DNA of 44,226 bases from NCBI GenBank assembly GCA_029624815.1, contig JARSSH010000070.1:1-44226 (forward strand), in the 5' to 3' direction. The DNA is from Candidatus Competibacter sp. Lineage in GTDB: Bacteria > Pseudomonadota > Gammaproteobacteria > Competibacterales > Competibacteraceae. This document shows positions 27,274 through 37,804 of the stretch, one piece after another; position 1 is the first letter of the stretch, and the number at the start of each line of letters is the position of its first letter. Below the pieces are notes generated by a model. The model did no database searches. It was not told the origin of the DNA and saw nothing but the letters and a program-made list of their open reading frames with translations. The position numbers and the translations under genes are program-made.

Positions 27274-29382
27274 CTATTCCCTTGCGGCCCGACTGATCCA
27301 TACCTCGGCGCTGGCGGCCTGCCCCGCCTGATCCAGCACGGTGATTCGCGCCAGCCCCTCGCCGTCCGGCGGCCAGAACGCATTCCGCCGCCACGGGTCC
27401 GCCGACAACGGCCGGCCGTTCACCAGCCAGCGCAACGGTCGGACCCCGCCGGTCGCGGTCAGCGGCAGTTCGGCCAGCCGGCCATCTTGCGCCGGCAATT
27501 CCACCGTGGTTCCCGCCACCGGGAAGCCGATGCCGAGCGGTGGCGCGCTGGCCGTTTCTCGCGCTGGCCGGGTGCGAAAATAGCGCAGGCGTTCCGGCAA
27601 TTGTTCGCGGCCGACCACCCGCAGCACGGTGGCGGGCGGCGGCGCGGGCGAGGTCTTCGGCTCCGGCAGCAGATCGAACACCCGCAACAGCAGCGGCGCG
27701 GCGGTATTGCGGCCGTAGTGGCCGGGGCTGGGCGAACCGTCCGGCCGGCCGACCCAGACCCCAACGGTGTAGTCGGCGTCGAAGCCCAGCGCCCAGGCGT
27801 CGCGGAAACCGTAGGAGGTGCCGGTCTTGTGAGCAATGAAGCGCGGCCGGGCGGCGCTGCCCGGCGGAGTCGCGTTTTGCGGCGTCGGCGAGCCGCGCAG
27901 GATGTCGTTCAGATACCAGCAGGCGGTCGTCGTCAACAGTTCCCGGCCCGCTACGATGGGATCGGCGGGGGAGAAACGCAAGGGCGCGATCCGGCCGCCG
28001 CTGGCGATGCCGGCGTACAGCGTCACCAGCTCCTCCAGGGTCATGCCGACCCCGCCCAGCACCAGCGGCAGACCCGGCCGGGAATGGGCCGCGTTCCAAT
28101 GCAGCGGCAGGCCGACCTCGCGCAGCCGCGTCGCCACCCGCGCTGGCCCGACCTGTTCCAGCACTGCCACCGCCGGAATGTTCAGCGATTGTTGCAGCGC
28201 TTCGCGCACCGACACCTGCCCGGCATAGGTATGGCGGAAGTTGCTAGGGCTGTAATCGCCGAAGCGGGTCGGCGCGTCTTCGATCAGGGTTTCGGGATGG
28301 ATCAGCAGATCGTCGAAACCCAGCCCGTACACCAGCGGCTTCAAGGTCGAGCCCGGCGAGCGCACCGCCCGCGTCATGTCCACCTGCCCGGCGCGGCGCG
28401 GGTCGAAAAAATCGCTGGCGCCGACATAGGCCAGCACCCGCCGGTCGCGGTTGGCCACCACCAGCAGCGCGATGCTGCTGGCCGATTCCAGCGCACTCTG
28501 CCGCCGATGAGCCAGCGTTTCCAGGGTTTGTTGCAAATTTCGGTCGATGAAGGTGCGCGCCGCCGGCGCGTCCGGTTGCGCCGCGCGCAGCCGCTCGGCC
28601 AGATGCGGCGCCAGAAAGGGCAGGAACCGCCGGCGCTGGGGAACCGGTTCCTCGCGGGATTCTTCCACCTGGCGCGGGGTCAGCACGCCGAGTTGGCCCA
28701 TGCGCGCCAAAACCTTGTCGCGCGCCGCCCGCGCCCGCGCGGGATAGCGATCCGGCCGCAACCGCGAGGGAGCCTGCGGCAACACCACCAGCAGCGCCGC
28801 TTCCGCCGCCGTCAGCCGAACCGGCTCCTTGCCGAACCAGGCCAGGGCGGCGGCGCGTATCCCTTCCAGATTGCCGCCGTAGGGCGCCAGGGTCAGGTAG
28901 AAACCGAGAATTTCATCCTTGGAATAACGGTGTTCCAGTTGCAGGGCGCGCAGCATCTCACCCAGCTTGCCGGGCAGATCGCGCCGGTGCGGCTCCAACA
29001 GGCGGGCGGCCTGCATGGTCAGGGTCGAGGCGCCCGACACCACCCGGCCGTGGCGCAGCCATTGCCCCAGCGCCCGCCCCACCGCCAGCGGATCGATGCC
29101 GAAATGGGTGGTAAAGCGCTGGTCTTCGTAGGCCGTGAGCATGGCGAGATACAGCGGGTCCACGTCTTGCGGCCGCGCCGGCAGTCGCCACACGCCCGGC
29201 GGCGCGGCGAAGGCGCGCAGAAGGCGATCGCCGGAATCCAGCACCCGGATCGACACGCGCCCGGCGCGTTCGACCGGCGGTGGCCGCCAACGATCCAGCG
29301 CCAGGAACGCGCAAGCGATGGCGATCGGCAGCGCCAGCCCGAAACCGACGCGCCGGCCGGTGAGGAGCCGGTTGTTGCTCAC
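27274..29382 (-). CDS. pbpC: Penicillin-binding protein 1C (bifunctional transglycosylase/transpeptidase)
   Basis: PBP1C polymerises and cross-links peptidoglycan on the periplasmic side, anchored by one N-terminal membrane helix (LALPIAIACAFLALD). The GT51 domain shows AYEDQRFTTHFGIDP with catalytic E86 and GASTLTMQAARLL. The transpeptidase domain has SPGSTLKP (S345-x-x-K348), SLN (399-401) and HKTGTS (KTG at 519-521). The C-terminal BiPBP_C domain ends the protein (VRPLRWLVNGRPL). The length of 702 residues is somewhat short for 1C. The GTG at 29382 overlaps the kaiC stop by 4 bases. The usual partner gene, an alpha-2-macroglobulin-like protein, is absent; being coupled to kaiC is unusual. 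Confidence 0.93.
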   Translation of the reverse strand: MSNNRLLTGRRVGFGLALPIAIACAFLALDRWRPPPVERAGRVSIRVLDSGDRLLRAFAAPPGVWRLPARPQDVDPLYLAMLTAYEDQRFTTHFGIDPLAVGRALGQWLRHGRVVSGASTLTMQAARLLEPHRRDLPGKLGEMLRALQLEHRYSKDEILGFYLTLAPYGGNLEGIRAAALAWFGKEPVRLTAAEAALLVVLPQAPSRLRPDRYPARARAARDKVLARMGQLGVLTPRQVEESREEPVPQRRRFLPFLAPHLAERLRAAQPDAPAARTFIDRNLQQTLETLAHRRQSALESASSIALLVVANRDRRVLAYVGASDFFDPRRAGQVDMTRAVRSPGSTLKPLVYGLGFDDLLIHPETLIEDAPTRFGDYSPSNFRHTYAGQVSVREALQQSLNIPAVAVLEQVGPARVATRLREVGLPLHWNAAHSRPGLPLVLGGVGMTLEELVTLYAGIASGGRIAPLRFSPADPIVAGRELLTTTACWYLNDILRGSPTPQNATPPGSAARPRFIAHKTGTSYGFRDAWALGFDADYTVGVWVGRPDGSPSPGHYGRNTAAPLLLRVFDLLPEPKTSPAPPPATVLRVVGREQLPERLRYFRTRPARETASAPPLGIGFPVAGTTVELPAQDGRLAELPLTATGGVRPLRWLVNGRPLSADPWRRNAFWPPDGEGLARITVLDQAGQAASAEVWISRAARE

Positions 29383-30908
29383 TCCTCGTCGTGGTTGGCG
29401 AACAGCGTGTCCAGCCGCTTGATTTCGTGCGGCTCCACATGGCGCGGATGGCCCGAGAGGATGCCGGTGACGTTGCGGAAGGACTGGCCGATGTGCATGC
29501 CGCTGGCGTCGATGGAAAACTCGCGGATTTCCTTGTCGTGGGCCGAGCCGCGCATCTTCAGCACGGTGATGCCCCGGGTGATTTCCCCGAACATTTCCAC
29601 GTAGCGCAGCAGGATGATGGAGTCGGTGATGGTGGAGATATGGGCCTCGGTAATCGATTCGCCGCCGATCAGCCGGGCGGTGGTGGCGGTGAACAGACCG
29701 GCGATTTCGCGGTGCTTGATGAATGAGGTCAGGCCGATCACGAATTCGCGGTAGCCCTTGACGGTGGAGACCCGCTCCAGCGCCGACAGGCTGTCCACCG
29801 CCACGCGGCTCGGTTGAAATTCGTCGATGGCGGATTTGATGGCGATCAGATGGTCTTCGAGTCCCATGGTTTCCGGGTAGACCGCGATGACCTTGAGCAT
29901 GCCCCGGGATTCCAGATCCTCGAAGTTCTTGCCCCAACCGGCGGCGTTGCGCGACAACTGATCCCGGCTTTCCTCGAAGGCCAGAAACAGGCACCGTTCG
30001 CCGCCGGCCGCGCCGCCGGCGATGAATTCGGTGGAGATCAGCGTCTTGCCGCAACCGGTGGCGCCGGACACCAGAATGATCGAATCGCGGAAAAAGCCGC
30101 CGCCGCACATGGCGTCCAGTTCGCGGCTGCCGGAAGTGATGCGGGTGTTGGAGGAGCGCTGCTTGAGTTCGATGGCCGACAGCGGGATGACCACGATACC
30201 CTGGCCGGGGAGCACGGTGAAGGGGTATTCGCCCTTCTGATGCTCGGTGCCGCGAAACTTGAGCAGTTCCAGGGTCCGCCGCCGTTTTTCGCCGTCCAGC
30301 ACGTTGCGCAGGATCATGACGTTATCGACCACGAATTCCTCCACGCCGTAGCGGCTGATGTCGCCGTACTCCTCGGAACGCTCGGCGGTCATGATCGCGG
30401 TGATTTTCATCAGCTTGAGCGCCGCCGCGATGCGGAACAGCTCGCTGCGGATCAGGGCGTGGTTATTGAAGTGGCCGAACAGGGAACCCAGCGAATCCAT
30501 CGCCAGCCGCCGCGCGCCGACCCGGTTGACCGCGGCTTCGATGCGAGCCAGCAGCGCGCCGAGATCGTATTCGCCGGCGACGATCTCGTCCTCGCCGGGC
30601 AGCGGCGAGGCATCGACGAAGGTCCAGCGGCCCTCGGCTTCCCAGGCGGCGATGTCCCAACCCAGTGTGGCCATGTTGCGGCGGATGTCGGCCGGCGCTT
30701 CCTCGAAGGTGACGAACACGCCGTGCTGGCCGAACTGGCGGATGCCCTCGGCGAGAAACTGGACGGCGAATACGGTCTTGGCGCTGCCGGCGGAACCGGC
30801 GAGTAGCGTCGTGCGCCCCTCGGGCAGCCCGCCCTTGGCGATCGCGTCGAGGCCGGGAATGCCAGTGGTCAGTTTGCGGATGGCGCTCTGGATGGGGTTG
30901 GCGGACAT
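29379..30908 (-). CDS. kaiC: Circadian-clock-type protein KaiC (double KaiC domain)
   Basis: KaiC is a hexameric ATPase with autokinase and autophosphatase activity. This 509-residue protein has both RecA-like domains. In CI the P-loop is GSAGSAKT (38-45; Ala replaces the last P-loop Gly), the catalytic pair is E69-E70 and Walker B is AMDSL. In CII the P-loop is GATGCGKT (282-289), the pair E312-E313 and Walker B AVDSLS. The segment EAHISTITDS places S425 and T426 at the S431/T432 phosphorylation sites of Synechococcus KaiC. The C-terminal tail (SGHPRHVEPHEIKRL) is present but short. The start ATG 30908 is 23 bases after kaiB. Its stop overlaps pbpC. Confidence 0.95.
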   Translation of the reverse strand: MSANPIQSAIRKLTTGIPGLDAIAKGGLPEGRTTLLAGSAGSAKTVFAVQFLAEGIRQFGQHGVFVTFEEAPADIRRNMATLGWDIAAWEAEGRWTFVDASPLPGEDEIVAGEYDLGALLARIEAAVNRVGARRLAMDSLGSLFGHFNNHALIRSELFRIAAALKLMKITAIMTAERSEEYGDISRYGVEEFVVDNVMILRNVLDGEKRRRTLELLKFRGTEHQKGEYPFTVLPGQGIVVIPLSAIELKQRSSNTRITSGSRELDAMCGGGFFRDSIILVSGATGCGKTLISTEFIAGGAAGGERCLFLAFEESRDQLSRNAAGWGKNFEDLESRGMLKVIAVYPETMGLEDHLIAIKSAIDEFQPSRVAVDSLSALERVSTVKGYREFVIGLTSFIKHREIAGLFTATTARLIGGESITEAHISTITDSIILLRYVEMFGEITRGITVLKMRGSAHDKEIREFSIDASGMHIGQSFRNVTGILSGHPRHVEPHEIKRLDTLFANHDEE

Positions 30909-30931
30909 GGTCGGTATTCCTTCGGCTTTGA

Positions 30932-31210
30932 TCAGGGCAGCGACTTGAGATCCAAGCCCAGCAAGACGCGCTCTTTGTCGGACAGATCGCCGATGACGCG
31001 CCGTAGGGGCGGCGGCAGGCTCTTGACCAGCGTCGGCGTGGCGATGATGCGGTCGTTTTCCGCTAGTTGAGGATGCTCCAGCACGTCGATGACCTCCATC
31101 TCAAATTGATCTTGCAACTCGGTTTCGCAGATCCGGCGCAAATTGCCGATGGCGCGCTCGCTTTGCGGGGTGTGTCCGGTGATATAGAGCTTGAGCACGA
31201 ACTTACTCAT
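30932..31210 (-). CDS. kaiB: Circadian-clock-type protein KaiB
   Basis: KaiB binds phosphorylated KaiC and, in cyanobacteria, sequesters KaiA after switching to a thioredoxin-like fold. This 92-residue protein is the stand-alone form. [49 protein letters not shown] and [17 protein letters not shown] match cyanobacterial KaiB nearly residue by residue. The start at 31210 has AACGAGGAG upstream; an in-frame extension to 31327 is not family-like. It is followed 23 bases later by kaiC and preceded by a 132-base spacer and the receiver/KaiA-like gene. Confidence 0.96.
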
Positions 31211-31342
31211 AAAAAACTCCTCGTTCCGAAAGCGCTGCCTGGATTGCCGCGAACCTCGCGTCCTTGCACATGGCCTGTCCCGAAAGGTTCCTCTCGCCGT
31301 GAACGGAGTCGAAGCCAGGGCTGGCATGGCGGAGACGGGCCA
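31211..31342. other. Spacer inside the kai gene series
   Basis: These 132 bases separate the receiver/KaiA-like gene from kaiB, the longest internal gap of the series. On the minus strand they contain TTCGACTCCGTTCACGGCGA, in the style of common proteobacterial intergenic repeats. No A/T-rich -10 box is visible. An internal promoter or processing site is possible but unproven. Confidence 0.4.
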
Positions 31343-32221
31343 TCAGGCATTCCCGCCCTGCTCGGCGGACCCGGCGTGCAGCACGTCCCGGTAGAAGCGC
31401 CGGTAGTAGTTGACCAGATATCCCATCAGTTCCAGCGCCATCAGCCGCCCCTCGTCGGCGTAGAATTTGGCGGCGTACTTGGCGCCGTCTTGCAGCGTCA
31501 TTTCCAGCGCGCGCGAATGCAGGTCGATGATGTCCCGCGGCCCGGCCTTGAGGAAGCCCAGCCGTTCGGCCAGCGCGGCCAGCTCGTGGCTGACGGCGTG
31601 TTCGACCTTGAACGCCTGTTGCTCCACCGCCCGTTCCAACAGGGTGTGATAAGCGCCAACCAGCATCTCGAACAGCACCGGATCGTAGTCGGCCAGCGCT
31701 TTTTGGCTGTAGAGCAGCGCGGTGACCGGCGCGGGGCTGCGTCCCAGTTGCGCCAGCGCGAGCCGCTCCCGCTGGCGCTGCGCCTGCTCGCGCTCGGCCT
31801 CGACGCGCTGTTGCAGGTGATGGCGCTCCACGGCGTACTTCAAGGTGCGGGACAGCAGGTATTCCGGTTCGAAGCGGCCCTTGACCAGATAATCCTGGGC
31901 GCCGGCCTCCACCGCCGCCGCGCCCAGGGATTCGTCGGCATGGCCGGTCAGCACCACGATCGGCAGTTCCGGCGCGGCCTGGCGCAGCACTTTCAGGGTG
32001 GCCAGCCCCTGGCTGTCCGGTAGCCCAAGATCCAGCGCCGCCAGATCGAAAACGCCTTCGCGCAGCCGCAGCCGGGCCTCGGCCAGGGTGGCCGCGTGCG
32101 TGACGGCGAAGCCGAACGGATCGGCGTCGCGCAGCCACTCGCGGGTCAGCCGGGCATGGCCGGGGTCGTCCTCCACCAGCAGCAGGCGCAGCGGTTTGGA
32201 AGGGGTCGGCGGAATGTTCAT
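31343..32221 (-). CDS. Receiver-domain protein with KaiA/RsbU-N-like C-terminal helical domain (candidate KaiA-like)
   Basis: The 292-residue protein has a complete receiver domain (about 10-130): acidic LLVEDDP (E17-D19), phosphoacceptor D64 (AALDLGLPDS), T92 (VLTGH) and K114 (YLVKG). A charged coiled coil (about 131-158) follows, then a helical domain (about 165-283). Its segments DIIDLHSRALE (230-240) and LMALELMGYLVNYYRRFYRD (260-279) recall the C-terminal bundle of KaiA (VVEIHMELMDE ... LCEMYRRS) and the RsbU N-terminal domain (EIISIHRKVL). Cyanobacterial KaiA is a pseudo-receiver plus this bundle, about 284 residues. A response-regulator/KaiA chimera (KaiA3) is known in Synechocystis. 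Position directly before kaiB-kaiC supports a KaiA-like role. The domain match was made by eye. Confidence 0.72.
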   Translation of the reverse strand: MNIPPTPSKPLRLLLVEDDPGHARLTREWLRDADPFGFAVTHAATLAEARLRLREGVFDLAALDLGLPDSQGLATLKVLRQAAPELPIVVLTGHADESLGAAAVEAGAQDYLVKGRFEPEYLLSRTLKYAVERHHLQQRVEAEREQAQRQRERLALAQLGRSPAPVTALLYSQKALADYDPVLFEMLVGAYHTLLERAVEQQAFKVEHAVSHELAALAERLGFLKAGPRDIIDLHSRALEMTLQDGAKYAAKFYADEGRLMALELMGYLVNYYRRFYRDVLHAGSAEQGGNA

Positions 32222-32225
32222 GTCG

Positions 32226-32687
32226 CTAGTTGGGACAGGAGGGCAGTCGCACGATGGAGAACCAAAAATTTTCGATATTGGACACGACCTTGATCAGTTG
32301 ATCCAGATCCACCGGCTTGGTGACATAGCAGTTGGCTTGCAACTGGTAGGCGCGCAGTATGTCTTCCTCGGCCTGGGACGTGGTGAGCACCACCACCGGC
32401 AGCATCTTCAACAGCGGGTCGCTCTTGATCTCGGCCAGCACCTCCCGTCCGTCCATGCGCGGCATGTTCAGATCGAGCAGCACGATGTCGGGACACGGCG
32501 CGTCCTGATAGGGCGGCAGCCGGCGCAGGAACGCCATGGCCTTGATGCCGTCGTCCACCACATGGATGCGGTTGGCCACCTTGCCGTCGGCCAGCGCCTC
32601 GCAGGTCAGCCGCGCGTCGGCGGGGTTGTCCTCGGCCAGGAGAATGTCGATCGGGCGGCCGGAGTTTTTGCTGAAATCGGCGTTCAT
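32226..32687 (-). CDS. Single-domain response regulator, Rcp1-like
   Basis: A 153-residue stand-alone receiver. Key residues are E19-D20 ([10 protein letters not shown]), phosphoacceptor D72 ([12 protein letters not shown]), T102 ([11 protein letters not shown]) and K124 (YVTKPVD). The C-terminal [12 protein letters not shown] is the hallmark of the Rcp1 family, the response regulators paired with cyanobacterial-type phytochrome kinases. With no output domain it would act as a phosphorelay intermediate or by protein contact. The ATG at 32687 overlaps the kinase stop by 4 bases, and the receiver/KaiA-like gene starts 4 bases after its end. This strongly suggests kinase to Rcp1-like to Kai-linked receiver signalling. 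Confidence 0.93.
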
Positions 32688-34531
32688 GGCGGCTCGGGAG
32701 TGGGGGGCGTCGCGTGGGCGCCGGGTCGGGGAATGGGATCAAGCATAGGCGGATGATCGGGTAAAAAGAAAGAGAAACAAGCGCCCTGCTCCGGCGCCGA
32801 CTCCACCCAGATCCGCCCGCCGTGGCGTTCGACGATTTTCTTGCACACCGCCAGGCCGATGCCGGTGCCGGGGTATTCCTGCCGGGTGTGCAGGCGCTGG
32901 AAGATCACGAAAATGCGTTCGAAAAAGCGCGGCTCGATGCCGATGCCGTTATCCCGCACCGAGAACAGCCAACCGGAAGCCTGCCCGTCCAGCGGCGGGC
33001 GGCGCGCGTGGTCCAGCCGTTCGGCGGCGATGCTGACCTGGGGCTGTTGGCCCGGCCGGTGGAAGCGGATGGCGTTGACGAGCAGGTTTTGCAGCAGCAT
33101 ACGCATTTGCGCCGGGTCGGCCAGCACCGTCGGCAGGGGTTGACGGTGGATGTCGGCGGCGTGTTCCTGGATGGCGGTTTCGAGATTGGCCAGGGTTTCG
33201 GTCAGCGCTTGTTCCATGTCGGTTGGAGCGTAGGGTTGTCCACGGGTGCTGACGCGGGAAAAGGTCAGCAGGTCGAGAATCAGTTGCTGCATGCGCTTGG
33301 CGCCGTCCACGGCGATGGCGATGAACTCGCGGGCCGAGTCGTCCAGCTTGTCGCGGTAGCGGCGCTCCAGCAGTTGCAGATAGCCGGTGACCATGCGCAG
33401 CGGTTCTTGCAGGTCGTGAGAGGCGACGTAGGCGAATTGCTCCAGATCGGCGTTGCTGCGCCGCAATTCCAGTTCGCGCTGCTTGAGCAGGGAGACATCG
33501 GTATGCAGTTGCAGCGTGCGGCCGCCGGGCAGGGCGCGCTCCCGCACCAGCACCCAGCGGCCGTCGCGCAGGCGGCGCTCCAGCAGGCGGGCATCGGACG
33601 CGCCCGCCAGCGCCACTTCTTCGCCGACCGTACCCTGTTGGACCAAGGCGGCGTCGATGGCCGCCAGCGCCCGCCCCTCGGCCCAGGGCGCGGCGGCGTC
33701 GGCTCCGTACAATTCGTTCAGGCGCGGGCTGATCAGCAGCGCCACGCCTTCGGCGTCGAGCAGCGCCAAACCCTCGGTCATGTGGGTGAGGGCGTAATCG
33801 AGATGCCGGCGAGCGATTTCGGAGCGGGAGCGCTCGCCGGCGTAGAGCCCGGCCAGCTTGCGCCGGGTCTGGTTGATGCTGGCGACGACCACGTCCAGTT
33901 CGTCCGCGCCGCCGGGGGGCGGCGGGGCGCGGTCCAGCCGCAGATCGCCCGGATCGCGCTCGAACTCCAGGGCCTCGATGTAGCGGGCGATGGCTTGCAA
34001 GTGACGGGTCAGGTAGCGGGACAGGAACAAAATCACGAACAGCGTCAGCGCCACGATTTCCACCGCCGTGATGCTGAGCCGCTGCCCCAGGCGGCGGATC
34101 AGTTGGGCGCGGATGGCGTCCTCGCCGGCCACCACCCGCAGACGGGCGATTTCGGCCGGGGCCTGGCCTTCGGGCGCGAACCGCAACGGTGTCTCGAACT
34201 CGACCGGATGGCTAACCGAGGACTGGCCGGCCCGCGCCCGGACCTGACCGTGCTCCACCACCTCGGCGTAGTACAGATCGGGCATGTTGACCAGACTGTC
34301 GAGCAGGGCCCGGATTTGCGCGTCGTTCTCGGTCCAGATCGCCAGGCTCAGGCTGGAGTCGGCGATTTGGCTGACTTGTTCGAGAGTCGCGCGCAAACCG
34401 GCGAGTCCGATCCGATAGTCGCGGTAAAACTGAACGGCGGTCGCGCCGAGCATGACCAGCAGGCTCAGCAGGGCGATGCCGGCGATCAGGGTCCGGCCGA
34501 CCCGGCTGCGCAGGGTGGCGCGCAGGTTCAC
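32684..34531 (-). CDS. Membrane sensor histidine kinase, phytochrome-kinase-type core
   Basis: The 615-residue kinase has a first membrane helix (about 13-33), a roughly 120-residue periplasmic sensor segment, a second helix (about 153-171) and a HAMP-like linker. A PAS-like module (about 240-350) and a coiled coil follow. The HisKA helix has phosphoacceptor H372 in [14 protein letters not shown]. The ATPase domain carries NLLVNAIRF (N box), DNGIGIEP and GTGIGLAV. The SHDLQEPLR form is that of phytochrome-type kinases, but no PAS-GAF-PHY chromophore region is present. The start is GTG 34531, overlapping the stop of the solute-binding gene. Its stop overlaps the response regulator start. The ligand is unknown; the solute-binding neighbour is a candidate co-sensor. 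Confidence 0.92.
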
Positions 34532-35322
34532 GGCGCGCCTTCGCCGGTCCCGCGCAGGGGTTCGAGCAACTGGTCAACCAAACGCTGGTAGCTGCCGTCC
34601 TGCTTCATGGCGCGCAGCGCGGCGGCGATGCGCGGCGCCAGCGCGGCGTGGCGCTGGTGGAGGTAGATAAACATCTCGCGTTCGGTCAGCGGCGGTTCCA
34701 CCACCGTGATGTCGGTCAAGCCGAGCTGCTTGAGCAGATAGCGGCCCGACCACAGTTCGTACAACGCCAGTTCGGCCCGGCCGGCGTGCAGCATACGAAA
34801 GAGTTGATCGGGTTCGGTGACGGTCACGGCGGTGCGGGGGTGATACGCCAATATGCCCTCTTCAAAGAGTTTCCAGCCCCGAAGCAACACCACGTTGCGA
34901 TCCCGGACGATCTCCCAACCGCCTTCATGCAAGGTCAGACCCGGCGGCGCAAAAGCGACAAAGACCATATCCATGATCTTTTCCGGTACCGGAATCAGAT
35001 GTGGGAACAGCCTTTCGAGGCCAGCGATACGCACGAGATTGCCGTCGTATTCGCCCTCGTCCGCGGACTTGATGGCGCGCGCGTTGGGGAGCAGTACGAT
35101 CTCGGCTTCGATCCCCGCTCGGCGCATCGCTTCGAGAATCACCCGGTCGAGAAAGCCATCGTGGGCCTGGTTGATCAACGGTGGGAATTCGCTGGTGGTG
35201 AACCGCAGCGCCGGCGGGGATTCGGCCGCCCGCGCGCCGGCGGCCGCCAGCCACGAGAGCAGTATCAGCAGGCACAGCATCGGGCGGGCCATGGCCGCGC
35301 GGTCAGGGAAGGCGTTTTTCAT
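34528..35322 (-). CDS. Periplasmic solute-binding protein, family 3-like
   Basis: The 264-residue protein has a signal peptide (MLCLLILLSWLAAAGARA, cleavage near residue 32) and a bilobed binding-protein pattern: LRFTTSEFPPLINQAHDGFLDRVILEAMRRAG, NARAIKSADEGEYDGNLVR, VFVAFAPP, LFRMLHAGRAELALYELW and the C-terminal ALRAMKQDGSYQRLVDQLL. No ABC permease or ATPase gene is near. Its last codons overlap the kinase GTG start, so it is more likely a sensory accessory than a transporter part. ATG 35322 follows TGGAGAAG. The substrate cannot be named. Confidence 0.85.
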   Translation of the reverse strand: MKNAFPDRAAMARPMLCLLILLSWLAAAGARAAESPPALRFTTSEFPPLINQAHDGFLDRVILEAMRRAGIEAEIVLLPNARAIKSADEGEYDGNLVRIAGLERLFPHLIPVPEKIMDMVFVAFAPPGLTLHEGGWEIVRDRNVVLLRGWKLFEEGILAYHPRTAVTVTEPDQLFRMLHAGRAELALYELWSGRYLLKQLGLTDITVVEPPLTEREMFIYLHQRHAALAPRIAAALRAMKQDGSYQRLVDQLLEPLRGTGEGAP

Positions 35323-35372: not shown

Positions 35373-37505
35373 TCAAGGGGTCGGCGTGATGACCGGATGA
35401 ACCGGATGGGCCAGCAGGCCGCGCAAATACGCCGTCATGTCGGCGGCGGGCAGCGGTTTGCCGTACAGCCAGCCCTGGGCGTAGTCGCAGCCGATATACA
35501 ACAAGTGCGCGGCTTGCGCCTCGGTCTCGACCCCTTCGGCCACCACCCGCTTTTTCAAGCCGTGCGCCACGTTGACGATGGCCCGGGTCAGCAGCGCGCT
35601 GCCGGGATCGTCCAGCAGATCGACGATGAAGCTGCGGTCCACCTTGACCACGTCGAAGGGCAGTTGCTTGAGCAGGCCGAGCGAAGAGTAGCCGACGCCG
35701 AAATCGTCCATGTGCAGCTCGATGCCCTGCTCGCGCAGGGCGCGCAGGATGTGCAAGGCCCGCACTTGATCCTGCATCACCGCGTTTTCGGTCAGTTCCA
35801 GCTTGAGCGCGTTGGGCCGCAAATCGTTGCGCGCCAGCAAATCCTGGATGGTCTGGATGAAGTCCTGGTCCGCCAGTTGCTTGGGGGAAATGTTGACCGC
35901 CACGGGCACGGGGTCGAGTCCGATATGGCGCCATTCCCGCATTTGCCGGCACGCTTCCGCCAGAATCCAGTCGCCGACCGGCAGGATCAGGCCGGTTTCC
36001 TCCAGCAGCGGGATGAAGTCGTTGGGCGGAACCAGACCCCGATCCGAGCGCCGCCAGCGCACCAGCGCTTCCATGCCGATCGGCCGCCGGGTGCGCAGGT
36101 CGATCTGAATTTGGTAGTGCAGCACGAACTCGTTCCGGTCCAGGGCATGGCGCAGGCTGTTTTCCAGGGACAAGCGATCACGGTTGCGCGTATCCAGTTC
36201 CTTGGAGTAGAAGCAGATATGCAGCTCCTTGTGGCGTTTGGCGTGATACATGGCGCTGTCGGCCAGTTGGATCAGCGTCTCGGCGTCGTCGGCATCGTCG
36301 GGGTAGAGGCTGACGCCGATGCTGGGAATCGCGAACAGCTCGCCGGCTTCGGTCGGAATGGGTTGGTCAAACAGGTCGCGGAGTTTTTTGGTCAGTGCGC
36401 CGGCTTGCTCCCGGCCGTTCAACCCTTCCAGCAGCACGATGAATTCGTCGCCGCCCATGCGGGCCACCGTGTCGGACTGGCGCACCGCGTCGGCCAGGCG
36501 GGAGGCTACCTGCTGGAGTAGTTGATCGCCGATCTTGTGGCCCAGACTGTCGTTGACCTCCTTGAAGCGATCCAGATCCATGAACAGGATCGCCGCCTTG
36601 ACGCCGCCGCGCCGGGCGCGCAACAACGCCTGGTCGAGGCGGTCGGCGAACAGCGCGCGGTTGGGCAGCCCGGTCAGGCTGTCGTGCTGGGCCAGGTACC
36701 TGACTTGAGACTCGGCCGCCTGGCGCTCGGTGATATCGTGCAGCATCAGCAGGTGGGCCGGTCGATGCCGCCACTGGGTTTCGGTCACGGTCAATTCGGC
36801 CGTGCCCCGCCGGCCGTCAGGGCGCAGGACGGTGATTTCGGTTTTCCCCCCCACCGCCGGAATGCCGAACTCGCTGCCCACCAGCGTCTGGCCGTCGCGG
36901 CCGAGCAGGGCTTCCGCCGCGGGGTTGGCGAACAAAATGACGCCGGCCATGTTCACCAGCAGGATGCCGGTGCGGTTTTTGCGCACGACGTTATGAAAGC
37001 TTTCCTCGCTTTCGTGCAGCGCCCGCGTCTGCTCGTCGACCCGCGACTCCAGCCGTTCCTTGGCGACCCGCAACTCGTCCAGCAGCCGCAGGTTCTCGAC
37101 GTGCAGGCGGACGTCCCGGATGGCGTTGCTCAACAACGCGCGCAGCTCCAGGGGATCCCAGGGCTTGGCCAGGTAGGCGTAGATGCGGCCCTCGTTGATC
37201 GCCTGGATCGCCGCCGTCAGATCGGGGTAGCCGGTTAGCAGAATGCGGACGGTGTTCGGCTGGCTTTGGTAGACCTCGCGCAGAAACTCGGCGCCGCTGG
37301 CGTCCGGCAGGCGCTGGTCGGCGATCACCACATCCACCGGATGCCGGTCGAGCAGAACCCGCGCCTGGTTGGGCGTGGTGGCGGTGAGGACATGGAACTC
37401 GCGCCGCAACTGGCGACGCAGGGTCGCCAGAATATCCGCTTCGTCGTCGAGCACCAGCACGGTGCCGGTTGGCGGGACGCTGTCTTGGACGGTCGGTTCG
37501 TTCAT
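35373..37505 (-). CDS. Response regulator with PAS, GGDEF and EAL domains
   Basis: A 710-residue cytosolic c-di-GMP enzyme. The receiver domain (about 14-130) has D63 in VIADQRLPD and K114. A coiled coil (about 135-168) leads to a PAS domain (about 168-262). The GGDEF domain has an intact GGDEF at 351-355, with the inhibitory-site RQSD (342-345) correctly five residues upstream. The EAL domain has E479-A-L481, ELTEN, MDDFGVGYSS, KVDRSF and VAEGVE. Both diguanylate cyclase and phosphodiesterase activity are therefore possible. ATG 37505 gives the receiver's normal N-terminus. The gene is first in the minus-strand series; the solute-binding gene starts 50 bases after its stop. Confidence 0.93.
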   Translation of the reverse strand: MNEPTVQDSVPPTGTVLVLDDEADILATLRRQLRREFHVLTATTPNQARVLLDRHPVDVVIADQRLPDASGAEFLREVYQSQPNTVRILLTGYPDLTAAIQAINEGRIYAYLAKPWDPLELRALLSNAIRDVRLHVENLRLLDELRVAKERLESRVDEQTRALHESEESFHNVVRKNRTGILLVNMAGVILFANPAAEALLGRDGQTLVGSEFGIPAVGGKTEITVLRPDGRRGTAELTVTETQWRHRPAHLLMLHDITERQAAESQVRYLAQHDSLTGLPNRALFADRLDQALLRARRGGVKAAILFMDLDRFKEVNDSLGHKIGDQLLQQVASRLADAVRQSDTVARMGGDEFIVLLEGLNGREQAGALTKKLRDLFDQPIPTEAGELFAIPSIGVSLYPDDADDAETLIQLADSAMYHAKRHKELHICFYSKELDTRNRDRLSLENSLRHALDRNEFVLHYQIQIDLRTRRPIGMEALVRWRRSDRGLVPPNDFIPLLEETGLILPVGDWILAEACRQMREWRHIGLDPVPVAVNISPKQLADQDFIQTIQDLLARNDLRPNALKLELTENAVMQDQVRALHILRALREQGIELHMDDFGVGYSSLGLLKQLPFDVVKVDRSFIVDLLDDPGSALLTRAIVNVAHGLKKRVVAEGVETEAQAAHLLYIGCDYAQGWLYGKPLPAADMTAYLRGLLAHPVHPVITPTP

Positions 37506-37804
37506 GGAGCATTCCCGTTGACTATTCGTACTCCGAACGCAAATCCCGGAGCGAAATGGGCTTTCGCACGATCGGTGATCAGTGATCTCTCTAACGGGTC
37601 GAATCGAGGACGATCGCGGGCGCGCTGCTTGCAACGCACCGCTACTCAAGCCATTTCTGTCAGAGGCTCGAACGCTCGTTTAAGCAATTGTACGTCATCC
37701 CCAACGCCCGGCGGAATAGTGCACGTAATCATATTATCGTAATTGTCTATTTTTATTACATCTGATAAGCAGAGAATGCCATTCCAATTCCGGGCAGTCT
37801 TTTT
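37506..37804. other. Upstream region of the signalling/kai gene series
   Basis: These 299 bases hold no gene. The part near 37725-37770 is AT-rich (CATATTATCG, then TATTTTTATTACATC) and is the likeliest place for a promoter driving the minus-strand series. No convincing -35/-10 pair with proper spacing was found. GATCAGTGATC near 37575-37590 is a short repeat. The sirtuin remnant ends at 37805. Confidence 0.4.

Follow-up and report, generated by a model that had tools for sequence, protein, structure and literature searches.

A KaiA-like gene and a linked two-component pair precede kaiB and kaiC in a Candidatus Competibacter genome

Does a gammaproteobacterium encode all three parts of a Kai timer? 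The question is raised by a 44,226-nucleotide stretch of DNA from Candidatus Competibacter sp. (assembly GCA_029624815.1, contig JARSSH010000070.1, positions 1 to 44,226; hereafter the window), on the minus strand of which a gene for a receiver protein with a KaiA-like C-terminal domain (31343..32221) is followed by kaiB (30932..31210) and kaiC (29379..30908). An earlier note on this DNA had proposed a three-part timer in A-B-C order, and the open reading frames (ORFs) bear out both the order and the shared strand. With a probability of roughly three in four, we read the locus as encoding a KaiA3-KaiB3-KaiC3 post-translational timer with dedicated two-component input. The observations we report concern genes, domains, a phosphosite motif, a predicted fold, and gene order and its conservation.

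The receiver protein and its likeness to KaiA

The 292-residue product of 31343..32221 comprises a receiver domain (31868..32188, minus strand, approximately residues 12-118; Response_reg PF00072, E value 6e-20), a long helix, and a KaiA-like four-helix domain (31361..31681, minus strand, approximately residues 181-287). Relatives came from 25 loci of named genomes as well as from genomes of the window's family and class. When 309 frames from 23 canonical kai loci were searched with a profile of this domain, KaiA frames took all of the first 20 places. Comparison of 30 C-terminal domains with 21 canonical KaiA sequences using hhalign returned a score of 34.1 (E value 1e-4 for one comparison, probability 58%), which none of 200 column shuffles reached (best 21.7), and leaving out the cyanobacterial L019, L021 and L022 together with the cyanobacterium-labelled L017 did not lower it (35.4). 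This comparison was a repeat covering 21 of the 23 canonical loci, L067 and L068 (two pieces of one genome) having been dropped, as had the duplicate row L008 on the family side; in the first, 15 of the 23 had been chosen by motif and 14 used, one short frame being dropped. The family aligns collinearly with KaiA, the last part of the alignment being a shared R-L...acid...L...Y-R pattern, and D230, E264, G267 and Y273 are invariant in all 30 family rows. A distant member, L044, passes the Pfam cut-off for KaiA (E value 6e-5).

The predicted fold points the same way. The model of the full-length protein (predicted local distance difference test score, pLDDT, 82.9) has a receiver, a long helix at 121-161, a loose linker and a bundle at 181-287; in an AlphaFold model of its own, with a pLDDT of 88.5, the C-terminal domain is a four-helix bundle. 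In VIA-align, KaiA structures occupy eight of the nine best rows, with Z-scores of 10.0-11.0 over 90-103 residues, and KaiA is also ranked first among the Foldseek matches.

Single-sequence searches gave the receiver and no KaiA: this was the outcome of Pfam and NCBIfam on the window protein (among the best 25 of 94 NCBIfam families), and phmmer against solved structures returned receivers among its best 60 of 258 matches. A first profile search found nothing, and NCBIfam identified no KaiA in 27 family members. Plasmid records searched with a KaiA3-like protein of cyanobacterial origin yielded no named KaiA3: none of the 16 matching records spans 80% of the query, and the 15 listed all match within query residues 1-141, the receiver part.

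Several results weigh against KaiA homology. Residues 150-292 match no Pfam family above its cut-off, and the window protein alone matches neither KaiA PF07688 (not listed at E <= 10) nor RsbU_N PF08673 in Pfam. A 27-row profile searched against solved structures met KaiA chains only at E values of 0.56-3, amid unrelated chains, and none of the Foldseek matches is as good as E <= 0.001. The stressosome protein 3zta reaches a VIA-align Z-score of 10.7, and helical bundles can attain values of 10-11 through chance. A histidine in the last helix of 20 of the 21 canonical KaiA sequences is matched by histidine in only 8 of 30 family members, and by Tyr268 here. Within the 309-frame search, the E values of the 20 leading KaiA frames are weak for so small a set (3e-4 to 0.24), unrelated frames outrank the KaiA frames of L055 and L058, and the L068 piece is absent from the list. 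Finally, the protein was likened to Synechocystis KaiA3 (Sll0485) by description, the cyanobacterial relatives aligned being L019, L021 and L022. Each of the tests for KaiA likeness is modest when taken alone; in combination with gene order, they favor KaiA homology over the other readings. The earlier note's proposal that the third gene is KaiA-like, to be abandoned if no profile match to KaiA or RsbU_N appeared, is upheld by the family-level profile comparison (0 of 200 shuffles), the predicted fold and gene order.

KaiB and the type of KaiC

The identification of KaiB and a double-domain KaiC, which had been called unmistakable, holds. PF06745 matches KaiC twice (E value 2e-116), and the stand-alone KaiB protein scores above the cut-off for PF07689 (E value 2e-29). 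The listed KaiB ORF (30932-31327) starts too early, however. The KaiB domain begins at ORF residue 46, an ATG at 31210 lies behind an AGGAG-like site, and KaiB of the close relative L015 has 92 residues; we therefore place kaiB at 30932-31210 on the minus strand, encoding 92 residues.

The 509-residue KaiC has two ATPase domains and keeps its Walker motifs, the paired glutamates and the motif HISTITD, which contains S425/T426; it ends in a short tail (GILSGHPRHVEPHEIKRLDTLF) and has no long tail of the KaiC2 type. Synechocystis KaiC3 is described as phosphorylated at the adjacent Ser423 and Thr424 (PMC11372060). The KaiC of the window shares 69-70% identity with the second-copy KaiC from three cyanobacterial genomes in which a canonical KaiA is also present, and 51-54% with KaiC1 proteins. 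A quick maximum-likelihood tree built on 43 rows places it in a 21-row clade with the three cyanobacterial second-copy KaiC (Shimodaira-Hasegawa-like approximate likelihood ratio test, SH-aLRT, 99), with 12 KaiC1 rows apart (97) and six KaiC2-like rows apart (99), both of these joins carrying long-branch warnings. The rows leave out KaiC sequences shorter than 440 residues (L017 and L035) and the loci without KaiC (L024, L031 and L037), and the labels KaiC3 and KaiC2 are given by gene context and tail, the tree holding no named KaiC3. Judged by its sequence, KaiC is a member of the KaiC3 clade, apart from KaiC1 and the KaiC2-like proteins. Since the third protein is KaiA-like and KaiC lies in this clade, we regard the system as KaiA3-KaiB3-KaiC3. 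A KaiC2-type hourglass set was considered and rejected on the clade of KaiC and its short tail.

Five other members of the window's family (L089-L093) have a long-tailed KaiC beside KaiB instead; these KaiC proteins are 32-33% identical to that of the window and are labelled KaiC2-like.

Gene order and co-occurrence

Among the 25 named loci, which come from many phyla, kaiB and kaiC follow the KaiA-like gene on the same strand in 22, at gaps of up to about 435 bases (L033); the others are L024, L031 and L037. A sample of the phylum contains the domain in 22 of 398 genomes, our own included, and at the 26 loci found apart from the window KaiB adjoins the domain gene in 25, while L118 ends at a contig edge. 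Chance adjacency of the kaiA-like gene and kaiBC is rejected by this order across loci. The two also co-occur within the lineage: among 58 relatives, a KaiC of 79-92% identity (our own aside) is present in exactly the three genomes with a strong KaiA-like match, making four genomes with both when our own is counted, and one further genome has a weak domain match (E value 2e-4). L015, titled Candidatus Competibacteraceae, encodes a KaiA-like protein 82% identical to that of the window.

The association has limits, which count against our reading of the locus. In Chloroflexota, where 11 of 151 genomes have the domain, KaiB lies beside the domain gene in just 9 of 15 loci; L145, L146, L153, L156 and L157 show no KaiB within about 1.5 kb, and L147 stands at a contig edge. 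The copies without KaiB are of the receiver type in four cases (L145, L146, L156 and L157) and of the PAS type in one. In the class sample KaiB occurs in 17 of 252 genomes, 13 of which lack a KaiA-like gene in the roughly 1.5 kb to either side of it. A KaiA-like gene adjoins KaiB in four (G000, G152, G266 and G267), so that kaiBC without a KaiA-like gene is the commoner arrangement in this sample, as the earlier note had expected.

Other gene orders were also seen. A second kaiB lies on the far side of the kaiA-like gene in L135, L136, L137 and L141 (order B-A-B-C), and L134, L046 and L140 have the order B-A-C. G152 (L081:3205-9479) carries a regulator, A, B and C and, in tandem behind them, another A, B, C set that is divergent.

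A kinase and a regulator adjoin the KaiA-like gene

A single-domain response regulator of 153 residues (32226..32687, minus strand), with D72 as its likely phospho-acceptor, ends 4 bases before the KaiA-like gene, and its own gene overlaps by 4 bases that of a histidine kinase (32684..34531, minus strand) with the architecture CHASE5, HAMP (below cut-off), PAS, HisKA and HATPase. From the gene for a possible solute-binding-like protein onward, the intergenic gaps are -4, -4, 4, 132 and 23 bases, the last two separating the KaiA-like gene from kaiB and kaiB from kaiC. On account of these gaps the kinase, regulator and KaiA-like genes apparently form one operon. The earlier note had seen neither SasA, the KaiB-domain kinase, nor an RpaA-type DNA-binding regulator in the neighborhood. 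Its statement on SasA stands: the genome (3.6 Mb, 99.97% complete) contains a single KaiB-domain match and therefore lacks SasA; a KaiC match at E <= 1e-50 was likewise given by one protein. Its picture of the neighborhood needs amendment, as a kinase and a regulator do lie directly upstream on the same strand, although Pfam finds no KaiB or DNA-binding domain in either.

The receiver of the KaiA-like protein is intact. D64 and K114 are present, and among the relatives with a BLAST-detectable receiver (21 of the 29 examined) the aspartate is kept in 20 and the lysine in all 21. A related regulator stands upstream in six of the 25 named loci (L015, L016, L025 in the first of its two sets, L032, L033, where it lies 319 bases from the kaiA-like gene, and L038) and also in G152; these loci reach into other phyla, with record titles of Magnetococcales, Verrucomicrobia and Magnetocorallium, and include a further genome from the class of the window. 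Of the 26 loci of the phylum search, 20 have such a regulator upstream; they are largely of two families, and L032 and L038 are counted again among them. In the distant L025, L032, L033, L038 and G152, the regulator is 47-61% identical to that of the window and the adjoining KaiA-like protein 29-42%. A kinase precedes the regulator in L015, L016, L032 and L033. Against a general coupling, the regulator was not seen at 19 of the 25 named loci, among them L036, for which upstream DNA is missing from the record, and the kinase is rarer still; as the pair is unseen at most of these loci, it is not an obligate part of the system. KaiC of the first L025 set falls outside the 21-row clade, and the link between regulator and KaiA is accordingly either old or has arisen more than once.

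Sensor domains at the N-terminus vary

In eight members Pfam finds no receiver. It identifies PAS at the N-terminus in L018, L026 and L028, protoglobin in L030, MASE3 in L034 and L035, MEDS with PAS in L036, and nothing in L037; all but L037 precede kaiB and kaiC. Four Chloroflexota copies (L148, L149, L150 and L154) have two PAS regions N-terminal of the KaiA-like domain, with KaiB adjoining in all four. Such variety among the N-terminal sensors would fit a role of the KaiA-like domain as a general output module. We further propose, as a tentative idea that falls a little short of even odds, that the KaiA domain is exchangeable, that non-cyanobacterial lineages wire different sensors onto the same KaiB-KaiC timer with signals acting at KaiA, and that a share of "kaiBC-only" loci are complete KaiA-driven timers whose KaiA went unrecognized.

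In Methylobacter (L030:5323-6414), protoglobin is fused to the KaiA-like domain before kaiB and kaiC, a possible gas-sensing timer, and in two Desulfobacteraceae (L034:4768-6339 and L035:4777-6351) a membrane MASE3 domain takes that position.

Relation to known Kai systems

The kind of system found here is already known, and the locus is not the first outside cyanobacteria. The KaiA3-KaiB3-KaiC3 type was described in 2024 in a report (PMC11372060) that states that the Synechocystis set oscillates in vitro and names KaiA3 outside cyanobacteria in Rhodospirillum, Bradyrhizobium, Roseiflexus, Chloroflexus and Chloroherpeton. Thus the proposal of a complete Kai set beyond cyanobacteria is sound as to presence, while these five genera take away its priority. 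According to other papers, kaiABC occurs in two non-cyanobacteria, a Propionibacteriaceae and a Planctomycetaceae bacterium (PMC8113500), and kaiB with kaiC in Defluviicoccus (PMC9041414). Literature searches, with most subscription journals outside their coverage, returned no report of this locus, of a linked kinase or of sensor swaps. What we consider new, and open to testing, is that a two-component pair is linked to the locus and that the KaiA-like domain is apparently used as a module.

The closest likeness is to KaiA3-KaiB3-KaiC3 of Synechocystis sp. PCC 6803, which shares the receiver joined to a KaiA-like domain, the position of this gene before kaiB, the retained receiver aspartate, and a KaiC3-type KaiC with adjacent Ser-Thr phosphosites. 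The window differs in that its host is not a cyanobacterium, in its upstream kinase and regulator gene, in the single genomic KaiB, and in the adjacent kaiC, which in Synechocystis lies elsewhere. With KaiA-KaiB-KaiC of Synechococcus elongatus the window shares gene order, a four-helix KaiA domain, KaiB and KaiC, but that KaiA is described as having a pseudo-receiver without the aspartate (PMC11372060), its KaiC1 type is the more distant one, and SasA is absent here. The KaiB2-KaiC2 hourglass of Rhodobacter likewise pairs KaiB with a two-domain KaiC in a proteobacterium. Unlike the present set, it is described as lacking KaiA and as having an extended KaiC tail (PMC11372060). The N-terminal domain of RsbU is a related helical bundle with a lower structural score.

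These comparisons matter in three ways. Signal input to KaiA3-type clocks gains concrete pairs to test, namely the adjoining kinase and regulator here and the recurring regulator elsewhere; the 2024 report says that signaling to KaiA3 by a cognate kinase is possible in theory, and gives that kinase as not yet identified. In other organisms, too, KaiA-like genes next to kaiBC may have escaped notice: magnetotactic XS-1 is described as having kaiBC clusters (PMC10278575), yet its contig (L025:2606-8313, Candidatus Magnetocorallium paracelense XS-1) holds two tandem kaiA-like/kaiB/kaiC sets, with a KaiA-like gene before two kaiB-kaiC pairs. A KaiABC set with a single genomic KaiB would also be easier to test than that of Synechocystis, with its three KaiB proteins.

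Proposed mechanism and alternatives

By analogy with the work on Synechocystis KaiA3 and with what is generally known of KaiABC, the KaiA-like domain would dimerize and bind the KaiC tail, stimulating KaiC autophosphorylation at S425/T426. Phosphorylated KaiC would recruit KaiB to its first ring, and KaiB would capture the KaiA-like protein, upon which KaiC would dephosphorylate. From gene order alone we infer an input step: the CHASE5 kinase may sense a signal outside the membrane and phosphorylate D64 of the receiver, the small regulator, or both, such that the availability of KaiA, and hence the phase or speed of the timer, would follow the environment. On the same analogy with the Synechocystis set, the timer may be a true oscillator.

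The alternative that we take most seriously, and hold to be a real if not the likelier prospect, is that the trio does work with its KaiA-like protein but has to be reset from outside, serving as an hourglass or a switch in the stress response and not as an oscillator. The lineage of the window is presumably not phototrophic, and the set is found in just 4 of 37 genomes of the family sample (our own included) and is therefore dispensable. An hourglass timer and clock-independent roles are cited for other bacterial KaiB-KaiC systems (Kobler et al., PMC11372060). Yet the hourglass cited there, that of Rhodobacter, is the set without KaiA and with an extended KaiC2 tail, against the short tail here, and the Synechocystis trio that oscillates in vitro is of the same type as ours. 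It is also conceivable, though we think it rather unlikely, that the kinase-regulator pair is an output arm through which the state of the timer is read, by way of the small regulator or the cyclic di-GMP protein. Cyanobacterial output does run through a kinase-regulator pair, SasA-RpaA (PMC11372060), and GGDEF/EAL or HD genes lie upstream of the kaiA-like gene in the window, L015, L016, L017, L020 and L029; the kinase, however, has a CHASE5 periplasmic sensor and no KaiB-like domain, and the intact receiver of the KaiA-like protein, with other sensor domains at that position elsewhere, points to input at KaiA.

Far less probable is that the C-terminal domain, whether RsbU_N-like or of another helical kind, interacts with a target other than KaiC and stands before kaiBC incidentally. 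The KaiA and RsbU_N folds are described as alike (PMC11372060), some Chloroflexota copies have no kaiB beside them, and when members were tested singly against Pfam, RsbU_N was matched weakly by 5 of 27 (best E value 0.0066) and KaiA by 2 of 27 (best E value 3e-5). The RsbU domain reaches a VIA-align Z-score of only 5.7 against 10-11 for KaiA, and the regular presence of kaiB and kaiC behind the gene, in the named loci as in the phylum search, speaks against an incidental position. A KaiA3-KaiB3-KaiC3 timer with two-component input is the reading that we retain.

Other features of the locus

In transcription order, the minus strand of the window encodes a receiver-PAS-GGDEF-EAL protein, a weakly solute-binding-like protein, the CHASE5 kinase, the response regulator, and the KaiA-like protein, KaiB and KaiC. 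The possible solute-binding-like gene (34528..35322, minus strand) matches SBP_bac_3 only weakly, at an E value of 0.0017 that misses the cut-off, and shares 4 bases with the kinase gene; its ATG is at 35322 and the preceding gap is 50 bases. L015 carries an ORF at the matching position. Further upstream, the receiver-PAS-GGDEF-EAL protein (35373..37649, minus strand) has counterparts of the same gene kind upstream in L015 and L016, and that it belongs to the timer system is a guess. GGDEF-EAL, GGDEF or HD genes upstream of kaiA-like genes lie at 35373-37649 in the window, L017:539-2254, L020:4258-5553 and L029:2361-4910. The record behind L017 (kai genes at L017:2274-5223), titled Synechococcaceae cyanobacterium SM1_2_3, appears to be genome G034 of the window's family, with nearly the same match identity and mirror-image coordinates, and the label looks wrong; its kaiC is split over two reading frames.

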